Source: Clostridiales bacterium (GTDB lineage: Bacteria > Bacillota > Clostridia > Saccharofermentanales > UBA5734). Taken from it: DNA of 8,766 nt. The DNA is taken from NCBI GenBank assembly GCA_007135995.1, contig SLHU01000359.1, forward strand, positions 1 to 8,766, written 5' to 3'. The number at the start of each line of letters is the position of its first letter. Positions within the stretch are counted from its first letter, which is position 1. Under the pieces are notes generated by a model. It ran no database searches. It was not told the origin of the DNA and saw only the letters and a list, made by a program, of their open reading frames with translations. Positions 2,473-8,766 of this stretch are shown here, in pieces. A program made the position numbers and the translations under genes.

Positions 2473-3372
2473 ATGGACGGTTTTATTTTTGATATTGATC
2501 ACTTCGCGACACATGACGGGCCGGGTATCAGAACAGTTATCTTTCTTAAGGGCTGTCCCTTAAACTGTGTCTGGTGTCACAGTCCAGAGTCGCAAGGCTT
2601 TATGCCTGAACTGCTTTATACAGCATCAAAATGTGCCGGATGCGGCGCATGCGTTGAGGCCTGCCCGCAACAGGCGCATGTGGTCAGCCAGAACACACAT
2701 AAACTGAATCGCAGCCGCTGCGAACAGTGCGGGGCTTGTGCAGCCGCCTGCACGCGTTCAGCACTGAAAATGTCGGGAACACTTCGGGATGCCAGTTCTA
2801 TTGTTTCACAGGCTGCTGCCTACCGCGTCTTTTACGAGCAGTCTGGCGGCGGTGTGACCATCAGCGGCGGTGAACCGCTGGCTCAGCCCGCCTTTGCTTT
2901 GGAGATAGCGAAGAATTTGCATCTGGAAGGTATTCATACAATTCTTGAGACATCCGGCATGGGCATATGGGCTGACCTTAAAAAGTTTTTGCCGTATGTT
3001 GATCTTTTCTATTATGATCTGAAAATTTTCGACGCCTGCCGCCACCTGCAATATACGGGTGTGCTGCCTGACATTATTCAGAGTAATCTTGAAAACCTGT
3101 CAAGGCAAACGCGGCAGATTGTCATCCGCATGCCGCTGATACCGGGCTATACAGATCACGAAGAGAACGTTGAGGAAGTCTATCGTTTCATGCGTAAACT
3201 TGACCTGAGGCAGATCCATCTTCTGCCTTATAATGCCAGTTCGCAGGCAAAGTATGCCTGGGTGGGTCGGGATTATTCACCAGGACATCTGGAACAACAA
3301 ACACAAAAAGCCCTTCAGTCACTGGTATTGCTGGCGCCAAAAGGCATTGAAGCCAGCGTCATAACAGGTTAA
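2473..3372 (+). CDS. Glycyl radical enzyme activating enzyme (radical SAM)
   Basis: This 299-residue enzyme is predicted to use S-adenosylmethionine and a [4Fe-4S] cluster to abstract hydrogen from the radical glycine of its partner, encoded next. The radical-SAM cluster motif is C28-x3-C32-x2-C35 within KGCPLNCVWCHSPES, preceded by the family signature HDGPGIRT (14-21). Two ferredoxin-like four-cysteine motifs follow: C54, C57, C60, C64 and C83, C86, C89, C93. This insert is typical of activases for dehydratase, decarboxylase and lyase glycyl radical enzymes and is absent from short PFL activases. SGGEP (131-135) is the SAM-contact motif, and YYDLK (180-184) matches the conserved DxK region. 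Full length, no disruption. ATG 2473 follows the duplicated AAAGGA. The stop is 31 bp before the partner gene, indicating one operon. The specific partner chemistry, and so a gene symbol, cannot be assigned. Confidence 0.95.
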   Translation: MDGFIFDIDHFATHDGPGIRTVIFLKGCPLNCVWCHSPESQGFMPELLYTASKCAGCGACVEACPQQAHVVSQNTHKLNRSRCEQCGACAAACTRSALKMSGTLRDASSIVSQAAAYRVFYEQSGGGVTISGGEPLAQPAFALEIAKNLHLEGIHTILETSGMGIWADLKKFLPYVDLFYYDLKIFDACRHLQYTGVLPDIIQSNLENLSRQTRQIVIRMPLIPGYTDHEENVEEVYRFMRKLDLRQIHLLPYNASSQAKYAWVGRDYSPGHLEQQTQKALQSLVLLAPKGIEASVITG

Positions 3373-3403
3373 CCACAGGCAAAGAAATTTTCAGGAGGCC
3401 GAT

Positions 3404-5734
3404 ATGATCATTAAAAACATCTCTTTTCAGCAGTCACACCGAGCATACGATGAGACAGTTGATGCCACCTCACCGGCAATCGCTGCTATTAAAGAAAGCA
3501 TCACAAACAGTATGCAGCGGCCTAAGAGCACCTGGGAGCCTGAAGGATCGGTTGTAAATGAAAATACAAGGTATGAGCCGGTTATTATCCGCAAAGCGAT
3601 GGCCATCCGCCATAAATTTTCTCTTGTACCGCTTTTCATCTGGCCGGGGCAGCTGATCGGGGGCAGCCTGGCAGACCCTGAAAAAGATATTCTGATCTCA
3701 GGCAGTCTGCCTGAATATGCAACAGAGGAAGAAATCACAGCAGCAAAGGCGGAAGGCCTGAATATTAACTCAATTGTCGGACATATTGTGCCTTCCTATG
3801 AAAGGCTTCTTTTTCACGGCACTTCCGGCATCAGAGTCGAAGCTCACCAGGCACTGGACGAAAGCCGGGGAAACGCAGCCTTCTACCAGGCGGTTCTGAT
3901 TGTCATGGAGGGACTGGAGCTGCTGGCCAGAAGATATTCAGATGCATACAAAAAGCTAAGCCAGGCCGCAGCATGCGCGCAAGACAGCAAGCGTCTGCTG
4001 CGGATATCCAAGGCACTTCGCCGTTCGCCTGAAAGACCGCCTCGTACATTCATGGAAGCCGTTCAAACGGTCTGGCTGACACACATGGCTTTTCAGATGA
4101 CGGGGAACAACCTGGCAATGGGCCGGCTCGACCAGTATCTGTATCCCTACCTTGATCAGGACCTTTTTTTAGGACGCCTCAATCAGGATCAGGCACAGAA
4201 AATAACTGACTGCCTGTATCTGAAGTACAATGAACGGTCAATCGCGAATCATGTGATGGAAGAGATGATTGATATCGTCAAGGCTCAGGAGAGAAATGAG
4301 CAGGTCTGGCAGAAAAGATCGCCGTTCGATCATGCGACACAAAAATATAATGTGCGCGACTCAATTGACGCAACAAACCACTGGCTGCAGAATGTGATTA
4401 TCGGAGGTGTTGAACCGATTACAGGTGATGACGCTTCTAACCTGCTCAGTCTGATGATTCTCAGTTCTCTGCGGCGGCTTAAAATGACGAACCCCTGTAT
4501 CACGGTCCGGCTTCACAGCCAGACACCCGATCTGCTGATGCAGTCTGTTGCCGGCACATTGCTTGAAGGTGGCGGTCAGCCGGCGCTCTTTAATGATGAT
4601 GTAATTGTCCCTTCATTGACATCTCATGGATTTTCGCTGGAGGACGCCCGAAACTATACAAATGACGGCTGCTGGGAAGTAATTGTGCCTGGAGCAACCG
4701 ACTTTTATTTTGATCGCTTCAATATTCTTAAATGCCTGGAATGGCTTTTGAATCACGGCCGAAGCCGGATTGATGGCAGACAGGAAGCGCCGGACCCCGG
4801 CAGTGCTGAACAGTATCAGCGATTTGATGACCTGATGGCTGGTTTTTATCAGATGCTTGATTATGAGCTCAGCGGCATCATGCATAAAATCGACAGCGCC
4901 TATGGCAAAAGAGCAAAAATTGCCCCGACACCTTTACTGTCCGCTCTGCTTGAAGGACCAATGGAAAAAGGACAGGATATGACGGCCGGCGGCGCAAGAT
5001 ATCAGACTTACGGGCTCATTGCCGAAGGCTTTTCGCATCTGATTGATTCACTCGCGGCGATCAAGAAAGTCGTGTATGAAGATCAGTCTTTTTCCATGCA
5101 GGAACTGCTGGCAGCCCTGGACGCAAATTTCAGCGGTTATGAACAGATTCAAAATGCGGTGCGCCAGGCACCCAAATATGGTAATCATGACGCTTTTGCC
5201 GACCAGATTGGCCAGGACATCATCGATGCCTTCGCCAGGAAGACAAAGGCACTGAATCAAGCGCTTCCCCGGATTAAATACCTGCCGGGCGCAGGCACTT
5301 TTTCCTGGTATCTGGCAATTGGAGAAGGCATAGGCCCCACGCCTGACGGTCGTCTGCGGGCATCCGGTGTCAGCAGCAACTTCAGTCCTTCAGAAGGCGC
5401 TTCAGCGCATGGAGCCGCTGCGGCTGTTTTATCACATGCATCTATGGATCTGTCAAGGCTGCCCACCGGTGCGCCGCTTGACCTGCGCATTGAAAAACGG
5501 AATTTCGAGGGCGATGGAGGATCTGGCCGCCTGATCGGCTTGCTGCGCTCTTTTGTGGCCTTGAAGAGCAACATGCTGACGCTGACCATCGAGGATACCG
5601 CGCTTTTACGAGAAGCGCAGCAGCATCCGGAAAAACATCCTGATCTGCGTGTGCGGATGGGCGGATGGTCTGCTTATTTCACCATGCTGTCAAAAGAACA
5701 GCAGGATTACCATATTGGCAAAGCATCAGAGTGA
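3404..5734 (+). CDS. Glycyl radical enzyme of unassigned substrate (PFL/diol dehydratase superfamily)
   Basis: This 776-residue cytoplasmic enzyme is complete: an N-terminal PFL-like barrel, then a C-terminal glycine radical domain. Seen directly: the finger-loop cysteine Cys423 with Glu425 in DGCWE, and radical glycine Gly754 in RMGGWSAYF near the C-terminus, where RVxGY is usual. There is one active-site cysteine, not the Cys-Cys pair of pyruvate formate-lyase, so ordinary PFL activity is unlikely. Cys, then Glu at +2 and Asp437 at +14, matches the layout I recall for glycerol/diol dehydratase. GHIVPSYE (His127) matches a conserved substrate-region histidine. However, the segment before GRLDQYLYP reads TGNNLAM, where I recall NGHSVSF in the dehydratases. 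Other family blocks: NVIIGGVEPITGDDASN (330-346) and PTPDGR (645-650). A perfect AGGAGG (3393-3398) sits five bases before ATG. It is likely co-transcribed with its activase. No transporter, shell protein or dehydrogenase gene points to a substrate. Family assignment is firm; the reaction is unknown. Confidence 0.95.
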   Translation: MIIKNISFQQSHRAYDETVDATSPAIAAIKESITNSMQRPKSTWEPEGSVVNENTRYEPVIIRKAMAIRHKFSLVPLFIWPGQLIGGSLADPEKDILISGSLPEYATEEEITAAKAEGLNINSIVGHIVPSYERLLFHGTSGIRVEAHQALDESRGNAAFYQAVLIVMEGLELLARRYSDAYKKLSQAAACAQDSKRLLRISKALRRSPERPPRTFMEAVQTVWLTHMAFQMTGNNLAMGRLDQYLYPYLDQDLFLGRLNQDQAQKITDCLYLKYNERSIANHVMEEMIDIVKAQERNEQVWQKRSPFDHATQKYNVRDSIDATNHWLQNVIIGGVEPITGDDASNLLSLMILSSLRRLKMTNPCITVRLHSQTPDLLMQSVAGTLLEGGGQPALFNDDVIVPSLTSHGFSLEDARNYTNDGCWEVIVPGATDFYFDRFNILKCLEWLLNHGRSRIDGRQEAPDPGSAEQYQRFDDLMAGFYQMLDYELSGIMHKIDSAYGKRAKIAPTPLLSALLEGPMEKGQDMTAGGARYQTYGLIAEGFSHLIDSLAAIKKVVYEDQSFSMQELLAALDANFSGYEQIQNAVRQAPKYGNHDAFADQIGQDIIDAFARKTKALNQALPRIKYLPGAGTFSWYLAIGEGIGPTPDGRLRASGVSSNFSPSEGASAHGAAAAVLSHASMDLSRLPTGAPLDLRIEKRNFEGDGGSGRLIGLLRSFVALKSNMLTLTIEDTALLREAQQHPEKHPDLRVRMGGWSAYFTMLSKEQQDYHIGKASE

Positions 5735-5893: not shown

Positions 5894-7888
5894 TTAATCT
5901 TTTTCTTTGATCAGACCTTGTCTGTATGCGCTGATCAGTTCTGTCAGGTCGCTGATTTCCTGTGCGATCAGGGCGCCTTCATCTGTGTCGGAAACGGTAA
6001 CCCGCCCGGGCATCGTTTCTACTATTTGCAGTTTTGGCGAAAAGTCTATCGGCCGCTCCTGCTCATCGACATGGAAAGGTGAATGCTCTGCCAAAGCAAG
6101 GTATCGGGAATTATAAACCAGTGTATAGCCGCCGATACCGGTTTTTTTCTGGTAGGCTTTAGAAATGCCGCCATCAATCACGAAAAGCTTGCCGCCGCCT
6201 TTGACCGGGCTCTCACCAGATTTAAGCTTAACCGGTATATGTCCGTTTATGATATGGGCTTTTAATGGATCAAGGCCGAACTCGCTCAGAATTTTCTCAC
6301 AGACTTTTTTGTCATCGAGCAGCTGATAATAGGCGTTCATTTTTTCTTTATGTGTTTTCTTGTCCTCGATCAGATAGCGTTCAAACGTTGTCATGCGGTC
6401 TTTGCCGTATAAAGGTGAATGAGGCCCGCACCACAAAAACCAGAGAAAATCCCTGGCATGATACTGCTGGCTGCTGTGAGGAGGCGAAAAATAGGCTTTG
6501 CGAACTTCCTTGTCGATATAGTCAAAGTAAGCTTTTCCGGAATAGTCTTCCCCGTCAAAGTGAATCTGCTCAAAATCACCTTCAGGGGTCATCAGAATGC
6601 AGCCATGGTATAAAAGATTCTGATTCACAGCCTTATACATGCTGCCATGCGCATACAAGAACTGCATGTGCTGCTGCAGTTTTTCGCTATGTCTGAACGA
6701 AGTGGCAATCGTTCTGATCAGCTCTTCTTCCTCAGGAATCAGTTTCAGCGGATCATCAGGATCAACCGTTGGAAACAGCTGATCTTTCAGCGGATACATC
6801 TGGCCATTGATGTCAATTGTCCCTTCAGCGAAGTTTATTTTCTCCAAAAGCAGCCGGTCCTGCATCTTGTATTCCGGATGTCGCTTGATCAGCTGGCTTT
6901 CCAGCTTAAACTGTATGACCGCAATGGCCTTATGCATTTTCGCCGCCAGCCGGCTGTCAACCGGATCGTATTTGTTCTCATCCAGAATATGCGGCTCGAA
7001 TATGGTACAGGGATCATCCTTATAGACATGCGCCGCAAATACCGATAGTGATCTGAGGTTAATGTTATAACCATCTTCCAGCAGATCAAAGTTATTATAG
7101 CTGATACCCATACGAACGACGTTGGCAACACACGCATGGCTGCCGGCTGCCGCGCCCATCCACAGTACATCGTGATTGCCCCACTGGATATCGACATCAT
7201 GAAAATCGATCAGCGCCTGCATAATCGCGTCAGCTCTGGGACCGCGATCAAAAATATCGCCAATAACATGAAGCTTATCAATGGCCAGTTTCTGGATCAT
7301 CGCACATAAACTGGTGATAAATTCATCCATCATACCCGTTTCAGAGATCGACTTAACCGTTGCTTCATAAAACTGGTCCTTGCTGTCAGAATTAACATGC
7401 AAAAGCTCATCAATGATCGGCGCAAAGTGTCCCGGCAGCTTTTTGCGCACCTGCCGCCGGGTATATTTGGCCGACACGCTGTTGCTGATCTCGAGCAGGC
7501 GAAACAAGGTCACTTTGTACCAGTCGTTTTTTTCCTGATCTGTAAGACTCAGTCGAGCCAGTTCTTTTTCCGGATAGTAGATCAAGTTTGACAAAGCAAT
7601 TCTGTCAGCCTTGCTGACTGAGCGGGAAAACAAATTATCTATTTTTTCTCGAATAAAGCCAGAAGCGCTGCGCAGCAAATGAATAAACGCCTCGTGCTCA
7701 CCATGCAGATCGCTGAAAAAGTACTCTGTTCCTTTTGGCAGGCTCATGATCGCATTCAGCCGAATGGCTTCGGCAGCAGCAACCTGTATAGCAGGGTATT
7801 CACGGGAAAGCAGTTTCAAGTATTTCAGATCCAAAAGAACCACCTCATTTCGTCTGAAATCATATGTTTCATGATAACTTTTAGACAT
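5894..7888 (-). CDS. fbp: Class III fructose-1,6-bisphosphatase
   Basis: This 664-residue enzyme hydrolyses fructose 1,6-bisphosphate to fructose 6-phosphate in gluconeogenesis, in the cytoplasm. It belongs to the class III family typified by Bacillus subtilis Fbp (about 670 residues), a calcineurin-type metallophosphatase. Metal-binding motifs are in order: FFSDLHGE (57-64), VIGDIFDRGPRAD (208-220), WGNHDVLWMGA (236-246) and INGHIPVK (547-554), with VIDGG (570-574) and KAYQKKTGI after it. Family blocks such as MTTFERY (499-505) and THKEKMNAYY are intact, with no frameshift. The ATG at 7888 has no recognisable ribosome binding site. A TTG at 7834 (residue 19) has GAGGTGG five bases upstream and could be the real start, giving 646 residues. 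The gene is convergent with the radical enzyme operon and stands alone, since the upstream gene has its own terminator. Confidence 0.96.
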   Translation of the reverse strand: MSKSYHETYDFRRNEVVLLDLKYLKLLSREYPAIQVAAAEAIRLNAIMSLPKGTEYFFSDLHGEHEAFIHLLRSASGFIREKIDNLFSRSVSKADRIALSNLIYYPEKELARLSLTDQEKNDWYKVTLFRLLEISNSVSAKYTRRQVRKKLPGHFAPIIDELLHVNSDSKDQFYEATVKSISETGMMDEFITSLCAMIQKLAIDKLHVIGDIFDRGPRADAIMQALIDFHDVDIQWGNHDVLWMGAAAGSHACVANVVRMGISYNNFDLLEDGYNINLRSLSVFAAHVYKDDPCTIFEPHILDENKYDPVDSRLAAKMHKAIAVIQFKLESQLIKRHPEYKMQDRLLLEKINFAEGTIDINGQMYPLKDQLFPTVDPDDPLKLIPEEEELIRTIATSFRHSEKLQQHMQFLYAHGSMYKAVNQNLLYHGCILMTPEGDFEQIHFDGEDYSGKAYFDYIDKEVRKAYFSPPHSSQQYHARDFLWFLWCGPHSPLYGKDRMTTFERYLIEDKKTHKEKMNAYYQLLDDKKVCEKILSEFGLDPLKAHIINGHIPVKLKSGESPVKGGGKLFVIDGGISKAYQKKTGIGGYTLVYNSRYLALAEHSPFHVDEQERPIDFSPKLQIVETMPGRVTVSDTDEGALIAQEISDLTELISAYRQGLIKEKD

Positions 7889-8126: not shown

Positions 8127-8766
8127 CTATGACAATGACCCAATTGGAAAAATAACATGCAGCTGCTGATCTTTTTTCACCTCGATGACACGTTTTTCGT
8201 GCCCATGGCGCACCCTCACCCTGTCATCCTGTTTTGCATGAATAGTGGCCTGAACCTGACTGGAATCCCATTGAACATCCACCCTGTGCCCGCCTTTTGC
8301 CACCAGCCCTGTGTATTGTCCATGGGTCCACGCTTTGGGGACAGCCGGTAAAACATGAATGTCTGACTCATAGCTTTGCAAAAGCATTTCCGCGATACCT
8401 GCTGTCAAACCGGTATTGCCATCCAGTTCATAAATACCCCCTGTTACTGACGATGTGGGACCTTCATGGGTAATCATCAAATTCTCCCTGCTTAGAAAAG
8501 TAATCATGGGCTTTATAAACGCGCCTGCCGCTTCCCCGTCCAGCAGTCTCGCATGATACAAGATCAGAAGCGCACCCGCCCAGTTAGCCAGGATGATATC
8601 TTTTGCATTTTCTCCAAGCCTGCGGTCCAGTGTGGTTCTGATCGCGGCCTTAAGTGCCGGCGCCTCTTCAGGCAAAATCAAATCGAAAGGATGTGTGGCC
8701 AGAAGATGGCTCGTATGCCTGTGATCAGGCTGCACTTCTTCATAATCCTTGTTCCATTCCATAAGC
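8127..8766 (-). CDS. GH95-family glycosidase (alpha-L-fucosidase-like), C-terminal part (runs off right edge)
   Basis: The reading frame is open to the right edge; the first ATG (8762) is preceded in frame by a Leu codon and lies inside a conserved block, so it is not the true start. About 213 residues are visible of a protein usually 700-800 long. Family signatures seen: MEWNKDYEE followed by HRHTSHL, which is the (E)W-x-xDyeE...HRHxSHL region of the GH95 catalytic barrel; then YELDGNTGLTAGIAEMLLQS, matching the conserved DGNxG...IxEMLLQS block that carries a catalytic aspartate; then LPAVPKAWTHGQYTGLVAKGG, the LPALPxxWxxGxxxGLxARGG block leading into the C-terminal beta domain. GH95 enzymes invert alpha-1,2-L-fucosyl or related alpha-L-galactosyl linkages of plant or host glycans. 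Whether this one is secreted cannot be seen. A terminator follows, so it is the last gene of its transcript. Exact substrate is uncertain. Confidence 0.88.
   Translation of the reverse strand, partial: LMEWNKDYEEVQPDHRHTSHLLATHPFDLILPEEAPALKAAIRTTLDRRLGENAKDIILANWAGALLILYHARLLDGEAAGAFIKPMITFLSRENLMITHEGPTSSVTGGIYELDGNTGLTAGIAEMLLQSYESDIHVLPAVPKAWTHGQYTGLVAKGGHRVDVQWDSSQVQATIHAKQDDRVRVRHGHEKRVIEVKKDQQLHVIFPIGSLS

Follow-up and report, generated by a model that had tools for sequence, protein, structure and literature searches.

A candidate dehydratase-type glycyl radical enzyme with a tryptophan pair in its Cys and Gly loops

Glycyl radical enzymes (GREs) run key anaerobic reactions, yet for a large share of their sequences no reaction is known. 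Here we analyse a GRE gene and its adjoining activase gene in an 8,766-nucleotide stretch of a Clostridiales genome (contig SLHU01000359.1; the whole stretch is called the window below). The enzyme carries a Trp directly after each of its two predicted radical residues, the Cys and the Gly. The enzyme class is familiar; the Trp pair, together with sister proteins linked to haem peroxidases, opens the question of loop communication and activation to direct test.

The gene pair and its radical loops

The features of the gene pair are as follows.

2473–3372, + strand: radical-SAM (S-adenosylmethionine) glycyl-radical activating enzyme (activase), 299 aa; TIGR02494, Radical_SAM and Fer4 domains
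3393–3398, + strand: AGGAGG, read in the sequence; probable ribosome-binding site for the GRE
3404–5734, + strand: GRE, 776 aa, GCWE/Trp-pair branch; PFL-like and Gly_radical domains, fold match
4664–4678, + strand: Cys loop D421-G-C423-W424-E425 (CXE motif), codons read
4712–4714, + strand: Asp437 codon, read; conserved in the 40 top-ranked listed homologues
5645–5680, + strand: Gly loop LRVRMGGWSAYF with the predicted radical Gly754 (5663–5665) and then Trp755 (5666–5668), read and aligned

The two genes run head to tail on the + strand with an intergenic gap of 31 nt, and the GRE reading frame is uninterrupted for 776 codons. Its product matches the PFL-like (E = 2.3e-131) and Gly_radical (E = 1.8e-11) domains, that is, the barrel and, at the C-terminus, the glycine radical domain bearing the Gly loop, which together characterise the GRE superfamily. 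The dedicated radical-SAM activase of the superfamily is also present, the product of 2473–3372 scoring 313 bits against a cut-off of 174 for the general GRE-activase model TIGR02494; from the adjacency of the two genes, we infer that it acts on the window GRE. The predicted GRE structure (pLDDT 89, pTM 0.90) has the fold of the GRE eliminases. A relic or mis-assembled gene without function might be imagined in a host genome that is 59% complete and split into 432 contigs, but this is scarcely credible given the intact frame, the Shine-Dalgarno-like site, the adjoining activase and the same NfeD-activase-GRE order in a same-genus genome (L101), where GRE residues 2–274 are 75% identical.

The original prediction, made from the letters alone, had read this frame as a GRE with a DGCWE loop, and the domain matches agree with this family and the codons with its placement of the residues (GGC at 4667–4669, TGC for Cys423 at 4670–4672, TGG for Trp424 at 4673–4675, GAA for Glu425 at 4676–4678 and GAT for Asp437 at 4712–4714). 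It had missed Trp755, which follows the predicted radical Gly754 in parallel to Trp424, and which is Tyr in all seven reference GREs used below.

A homologue search covering about 5.8 billion proteins scored 7999 candidates and gave 512 matches at E ≤ 0.001; our homologue counts refer to the 120 listed among these, query included, the best after the query being 57% identical. C-W-E is present in 120/120, as is RMGG-W, with its Trp after the radical Gly, and His127, Asp322 and Trp327 are each invariant. The motif is therefore no chance occurrence, a rarity or sequencing error being ruled out by its presence in all listed relatives, and GCWE is, as far as these sequences go, the signature of a sizeable subfamily. 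The proposal that Asp437 is kept as in diol dehydratases is not borne out in that form. An Asp does lie at +14 from the Cys by count and in the phmmer alignment, but it is displaced in MAFFT relative to the glycerol-dehydratase Asp (presumably Asp447, likewise at +14), and Asp occupies position 437 in only 40 of the 120 homologues (P0001–P0040), against Gln in 64, which rules it out as a family-wide diol-dehydratase mark.

The two tryptophans go together. The panel of 109 GREs that we assembled contains 34 GCWE, 14 NCWE and 10 GCYE sequences and 44 others taken from fetched genomes. Its 7 references are YbiW, PflD and PflB of E. coli, an annotated CutC and HypD, an Enterococcus GRE and a propanediol-type GRE encoded next to pduA/pduB. 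The panel was chosen by hand from 23 of the 120 listed homologues and from fetched loci; "other" sequences of ≤550 aa were dropped, and several loci of the GCWE, NCWE and GCYE types were left out, including L076 and L088. Among the 44 "other" sequences, L004 proved to be NCWE, and L096 and L099 proved to be ACWE. Trp or Tyr after the Cys occurs with Trp after the Gly in 60/60 scorable sequences (50 W/W, 10 Y/W), and Val, Ile or Met after the Cys with Tyr or Phe after the Gly in 48/48; the incomplete L004, with Trp after its Cys, was left out because its Gly loop could not be scored. These are not 108 independent observations, since a single evolutionary event may account for the entire Trp-pair set, and the pairing therefore suggests, short of proof, a contact between the Cys loop and the Gly loop. 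Read in this way, the strict Trp424-Trp755 pairing would point at least as much to the interface of the two loops as to the substrate pocket.

The nearest functional precedent is isethionate sulfite-lyase (IslA, PDB 7kq3), which also has a Trp near its Cys and Gly. As described in PMC8473560, Trp374 of IslA touches the Gly loop and sits 3.5 Å away from the Cys thiol as well as from the Gly carbonyl, the W374F and W374Y variants hold more radical and are less active, and the sulfonate is bound by Arg189, Gln193 and Arg678. Unlike Trp424 and Trp755, Trp374 stands outside both loops, at the usual pocket-Phe position, and IslA is 23–26% identical to the window GRE. On this precedent, we propose that Trp424 and Trp755 may tune how the loops open and how the radical is passed on, instead of or in addition to substrate fit. 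The two-residue signature, an aromatic after the radical Cys and a Trp after the radical Gly, marks the branch described below and offers a testable handle on radical exchange between the two loops.

Place among glycyl radical enzymes

The window GRE scores far below the cut-off of every NCBIfam equivalog tested: CutC (TIGR04394), 336.3 bits against 1050; HypD, the trans-4-hydroxy-L-proline dehydratase (NF043068), 325.9 against 1100; (2S)-3-sulfopropanediol dehydratase (NF048011 and NF048009), 340.3 and 293.5 against 1000; PflD type (PRK09983), 292 against 1109; indoleacetate decarboxylase (NF033718), 248.2 against 1100; HPAD (NF033715), 169.9 against 1150; and PFL (TIGR01255), 57.8 against 994.2. 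Membership of any of these is ruled out by the scores; glycerol/propanediol dehydratase itself had no equivalog among the matches. TIGR01774, a broader subfamily model, is also missed (388.8 against 678.2 bits). The best PDB relatives are at most 30% identical, and identity to the seven references is 20.5–30.8%.

These scores bear on whether the protein is an eliminase at all. An X-succinate synthase, an aryl-acetate decarboxylase or a PFL-type acyltransferase is very improbable in view of the PFL, HPAD and indoleacetate decarboxylase values (58, 170 and 248 bits when rounded, against 994, 1150 and 1100), of a single Cys followed by X-Glu instead of the two Cys of PFL, and of the six-protein window, in which no accessory subunit gene was recognised.

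Each of the three trees unites the GCWE, NCWE and GCYE sequences in a single branch, with supports of 0.469 (FastTree, all columns), 0.985 (FastTree, loop columns removed) and 99.3 (IQ-TREE SH-aLRT, all columns); re-rooting may have displaced support values close to the root. NCWE is nested inside GCWE in the FastTree tree of all columns. The ACWE pair, whose Gly loops are also of the G-W kind (RIWGWSAYF and RVWGWSGYF in L096 and L099), joins with unstable support (0.998, 0.355 with loop columns removed, and 85.1); the Trp pair may have arisen there a second time, independently, or the placement may just be uncertain. By these sequence comparisons, the window GRE belongs to a branch without a characterised member in the collections searched. 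The original claim of a subfamily apart from characterised GREs thus gains the support of the equivalog scores, the identities and the trees; no close clustering, above 60% identity, with a GCWE enzyme of known reaction was found, the best characterised GRE tested reaching about 31%. In the non-subscription literature searched, we found no paper linking the GCWE motif to a glycyl radical and none linking a GRE to anhydroglucitol.

Like the window GRE, the NCWE and GCYE sister groups have an LRVRMGGW Gly loop, an aromatic after the Cys and an equally short β-1 tip; three examples are 28.7–34.8% identical to it, and no characterised member was met among the sequences compared. Unlike it, GCYE proteins come with a dye-decolorizing peroxidase (DyP) and lack an adjacent activase. 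The branch spans Bacillota, Chloroflexota, Planctomycetota, Armatimonadota, Spirochaetes and one archaeal metagenome-assembled genome (MAG), the GCYE form occurring mostly in aerobic bacteria. At L050–L073, NCWE GREs occur in SAR202 and further Chloroflexota, in Spirochaetes, in Clostridia and in a Bathyarchaeota MAG. Oxic water is a possible origin of some marine MAGs among them, and would be an unexpected setting for a GRE. The host genome has GRE-family matches on 8 contigs. One of them (contig C255, L004) encodes a second Trp-pair GRE, of the NCWE type, with its own activase and 30% identity to the window GRE; its frame leaves the fetched stretch before the Gly loop is reached, and contig C75 starts with a Gly-loop fragment (C75:4-192).

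Active site, gene context and proposed reaction

On the substrate side, four features were located by alignment.

3782–3784, + strand: His127 codon, aligned with the His of propanediol dehydratase 5i2a; 120/120 listed homologues
4100–4123, + strand: β-1 tip, residues 233–240 (TGNNLAMG), shortened relative to reference eliminases
4367–4369, + strand: Asp322 codon, at the position of CutC Phe389 and HypD Ser334
4382–4387, + strand: Trp327-Leu328, Leu328 being aligned with the pocket aromatic (CutC Phe395, HypD Phe340, IslA Trp374)

The span from W224 to R241 is 18 residues in 58/58 GCWE, NCWE and GCYE panel sequences against 20–21 in the seven references; among the 44 other GREs, it is 20–21 in 38, 19 in L003, L095 and the two ACWE sequences, 18 in L004 and 15 in the short L007. 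The window β-1 tip is two residues shorter than in six of the seven references and three shorter than in the seventh, and the His-Ser tip of glycerol/1,2-propanediol dehydratase (which we take to be His281/Ser282) falls in a gap of the MAFFT alignment. Asp322, found in all 120 listed homologues and in 0/10 GCYE panel sequences, replaces a Phe or Ser of the references. At position 328, PflD too is without an aromatic, and the alignment of Leu328 may be shifted by one residue, because Trp327 lies next to it. With its shorter tip and extra Asp, the pocket would be roomier and more polar. An altered substrate geometry, which the original prediction had attached to Trp424, is on this sequence evidence better supported by the short tip, Leu328 and Asp322. 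GRE eliminases share a CXE motif, the Glu of which forms a bond to a hydroxyl of the substrate and is the proposed base for its deprotonation (PMC8473560 and PMC7077986); the window GRE keeps this motif as C423-W-E425.

The closest folds are those of the B12-independent glycerol/1,2-propanediol dehydratases (PDB 1r8w, 5i2g and 9rco; template modelling score 0.81–0.82), which share the CXE motif, the His127 equivalent and an activase partner, and of CutC/HypD. A glycerol/1,2-propanediol dehydratase of the ordinary kind (or a CutC/HypD) whose Cys loop has drifted would agree with these matches and with the Asp residues at +10 and +14, which match the propanediol dehydratase loop in phmmer. We nevertheless consider it improbable. 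The dehydratases are 25–29% identical to the window GRE, have V/Y in place of its W/W, a longer β-1 tip and an aromatic where it has Leu328; CutC (PDB 5fau and 5a0z; 23–30% identity) has Asp at the site of His127. Moreover, every NCBIfam equivalog among the matches was missed by at least 2.9-fold in bits, both the W/W of the listed homologues and the shortened tip of the panel branch are without exception, and no microcompartment gene was found among the six window proteins scanned.

Further indications come from the gene neighbourhoods of relatives, surveyed at 80 named-genome loci, with an activase scored within 1.5 kb of the GRE. An activase is near the GRE in 38/47 GCWE loci (4 of the 9 misses being close to contig ends), 18/19 NCWE loci, 0/11 GCYE loci and 3/3 loci without a readable Cys loop. 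Flank clustering was extended to 100 loci by 20 more. In an NNGCWE subgroup that is 45–48% identical (two Ruminiclostridium cellobioparum strains, a Hungatella, an Eisenbergiella and two further MAGs), DhaL is a neighbour in 6 loci and DhaK in 5, with differing gene orders; some of these loci also have an MMSDH-type aldehyde dehydrogenase, an aldo/keto reductase, an NAD-dependent epimerase, a GH1 β-glucosidase, a ROK kinase, a lactonase-type protein and transport genes, the transport genes being judged from sequence beginnings only. GCWE GREs clustered with dihydroxyacetone-kinase-like DhaK/DhaL stand at L013–L017 and L024, and these clusters may represent an undescribed anaerobic sugar pathway. 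An enolase-superfamily cluster occurs in 10 loci (family checked on 4), the enolase-type gene overlapping by 4 nt the activase gene in L010 and the GRE reading frame in L063. The DhaKL, GH1, reductase and enolase-type neighbours, counted without a background rate, point to sugar or sugar-acid catabolism.

This context in some relatives makes a dehydratase-type radical eliminase acting on a sugar-derived polyhydroxy compound our best guess for the window GRE, with a probability of roughly 0.58. Building on the gene pair, the conserved residues, the fold match and the branch, we infer the following cycle. The activase, using SAM and an iron-sulfur cluster, would generate a radical on Gly754, which would abstract a hydrogen atom from Cys423; the thiyl radical thus formed would in turn abstract hydrogen from a substrate carbon. 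Glu425 would deprotonate the neighbouring hydroxyl, forming a ketyl, and the adjacent group, most likely a hydroxyl leaving as water, would be expelled, perhaps with the assistance of His127. Return of the abstracted hydrogen would restore the radical. Trp424 and Trp755 would pack at the interface of the Cys and Gly loops and so set the Gly-loop opening for activation and radical passage.

Several points weigh against this proposal. The His/Ser tip of glycerol dehydratase is missing from the window GRE, and model confidence is lower precisely at the ten-residue Cys-loop (pLDDT 78) and Gly-loop (72) blocks. No partner gene beyond the activase was found in the window or in the same-genus relative L101, and the nearest named loci, L009–L012, have no partner in common; at L009 and L011, even the activase was not found. 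Most of the sugar context derives from relatives that are about 35–48% identical. The gene context of the nearest subgroup is thin because close relatives are few: class and phylum searches, host genome counted, gave 2/391 genomes at E ≤ 1e-120 and 1/398 at E ≤ 1e-150. In a Chloroflexota/Armatimonadota-type GCWE subgroup, a Pfam run on 100 of 112 neighbours from 25 loci yielded no dominant partner, the commonest family being URO-D (5/100) and each other family reaching at most 2.

A GRE eliminase with a leaving group other than water is unlikely, albeit worth keeping in view: either a ring-opening lyase like YbiW and PflD, the 1,5-anhydrohexitol-6-phosphate GREs (PDB 8id7 and 8id0), or a lyase that cleaves a C-N, C-S or ether bond of a sugar derivative. 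YbiW and PflD share the eliminase fold and the CXE motif, and PflD the lack of an aromatic at 328. However, they are 23–29% identical across the structural and sequence comparisons, lie in a separate clade and have GC[VI]E and G-Y loops; the E. coli proteins are not close relatives (25.9% for YbiW, 29.2% for PflD), PRK09983 stops at 292 of 1109 bits, and the E. coli genes stand near fsaA/fsaB, no such aldolase being recognised in the window.

DyP-linked sisters and the rest of the window

The 11 GCYE loci belong to Psychroserpens, Aureisphaera, Flavobacterium (2), Hellea, Paracidovorax, Amazonocrinis, Polyangium, Anabaena, Chromobacterium and Archangium, which we take to be aerobic or mainly so. 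GCYE genes also lie on plasmids of Asticcacaulis (L145:4225-8205) and Hymenobacter (L146:5875-9214, in two annotated pieces); the loci keep GCYE and, where the Gly loop was read, RMGGW. By tblastn, a DyP-type haem peroxidase is fused or adjacent in 11/11 GCYE loci and in 0/69 others. It is fused on the N-terminal side in L082, L083, L084, L085, L086 and L088 and encoded immediately downstream of the GRE in L074, L075, L076, L077 and L081; both plasmids show the same DyP-GRE arrangement. A direct Pfam run for the DyP domain covered L145 and 7 of the 11 loci. No activase adjoins the GRE in any of the 11, and a genome-wide search for the activase family passed the cut-off in 1/11 GCYE genomes (Chromobacterium, 182.5 bits with pieces summed) against 5/5 GCWE/NCWE genomes.

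One could imagine that the two aromatics clamp the Cys/Gly radical relay, and that this clamp let the GCYE part of the branch leave anaerobic life, the DyP haem peroxidase replacing the radical-SAM activase in installing the radical; the window GRE would then be the anaerobic, SAM-activated form, performing a new sugar elimination. We regard this as a doubtful speculation. The GxxDG pattern, presumably the DyP peroxidase motif, is present in only 1/10 GCYE-linked DyP proteins (L081), which weighs against a simple activation of the GRE by the peroxidase; for the same reason, many of these peroxidase domains may be altered. The DyP-linked sisters raise the question of whether such a fold could function in the presence of air with no radical-SAM activase. 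In the literature searched, with the scope given above, no paper was found on a fusion of a DyP-type peroxidase with pyruvate formate lyase, and the combination of dye-decolorizing peroxidase with glycyl radical returned only a fungal genome paper, judged unrelated from the part consulted.

Three further genes were recognised in the window from the ORF (open reading frame) list and domain matches.

746–2128, − strand: NfeD-type gene (Pfam domains)
5894–7888, − strand: class III-type fructose-1,6-bisphosphatase gene
8127–8765, − strand: end of a GH95 gene (fragment)

The GH95 fragment was dropped as a functional partner of the GRE because it lies on the other strand, beyond the bisphosphatase gene. 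Promoter-like sites are at chance level (5 found, 4.5 expected); 8 terminator-like sites were found against 3.9 expected, none of them directly 3′ of the GRE gene.

At the left end of the window, a small protein (3–335, − strand) has an apparent signal peptide and near-perfect DRVVGDDIDIADDEMKIVSIDDD repeats; its same-genus copy (L101:1498-2055, − strand) has different repeat variants. Between it and the NfeD gene, a short tandem DNA repeat (511–777) reads as repeats such as FIQAFCSFRLSVHSG in two + frames and is probably not coding.

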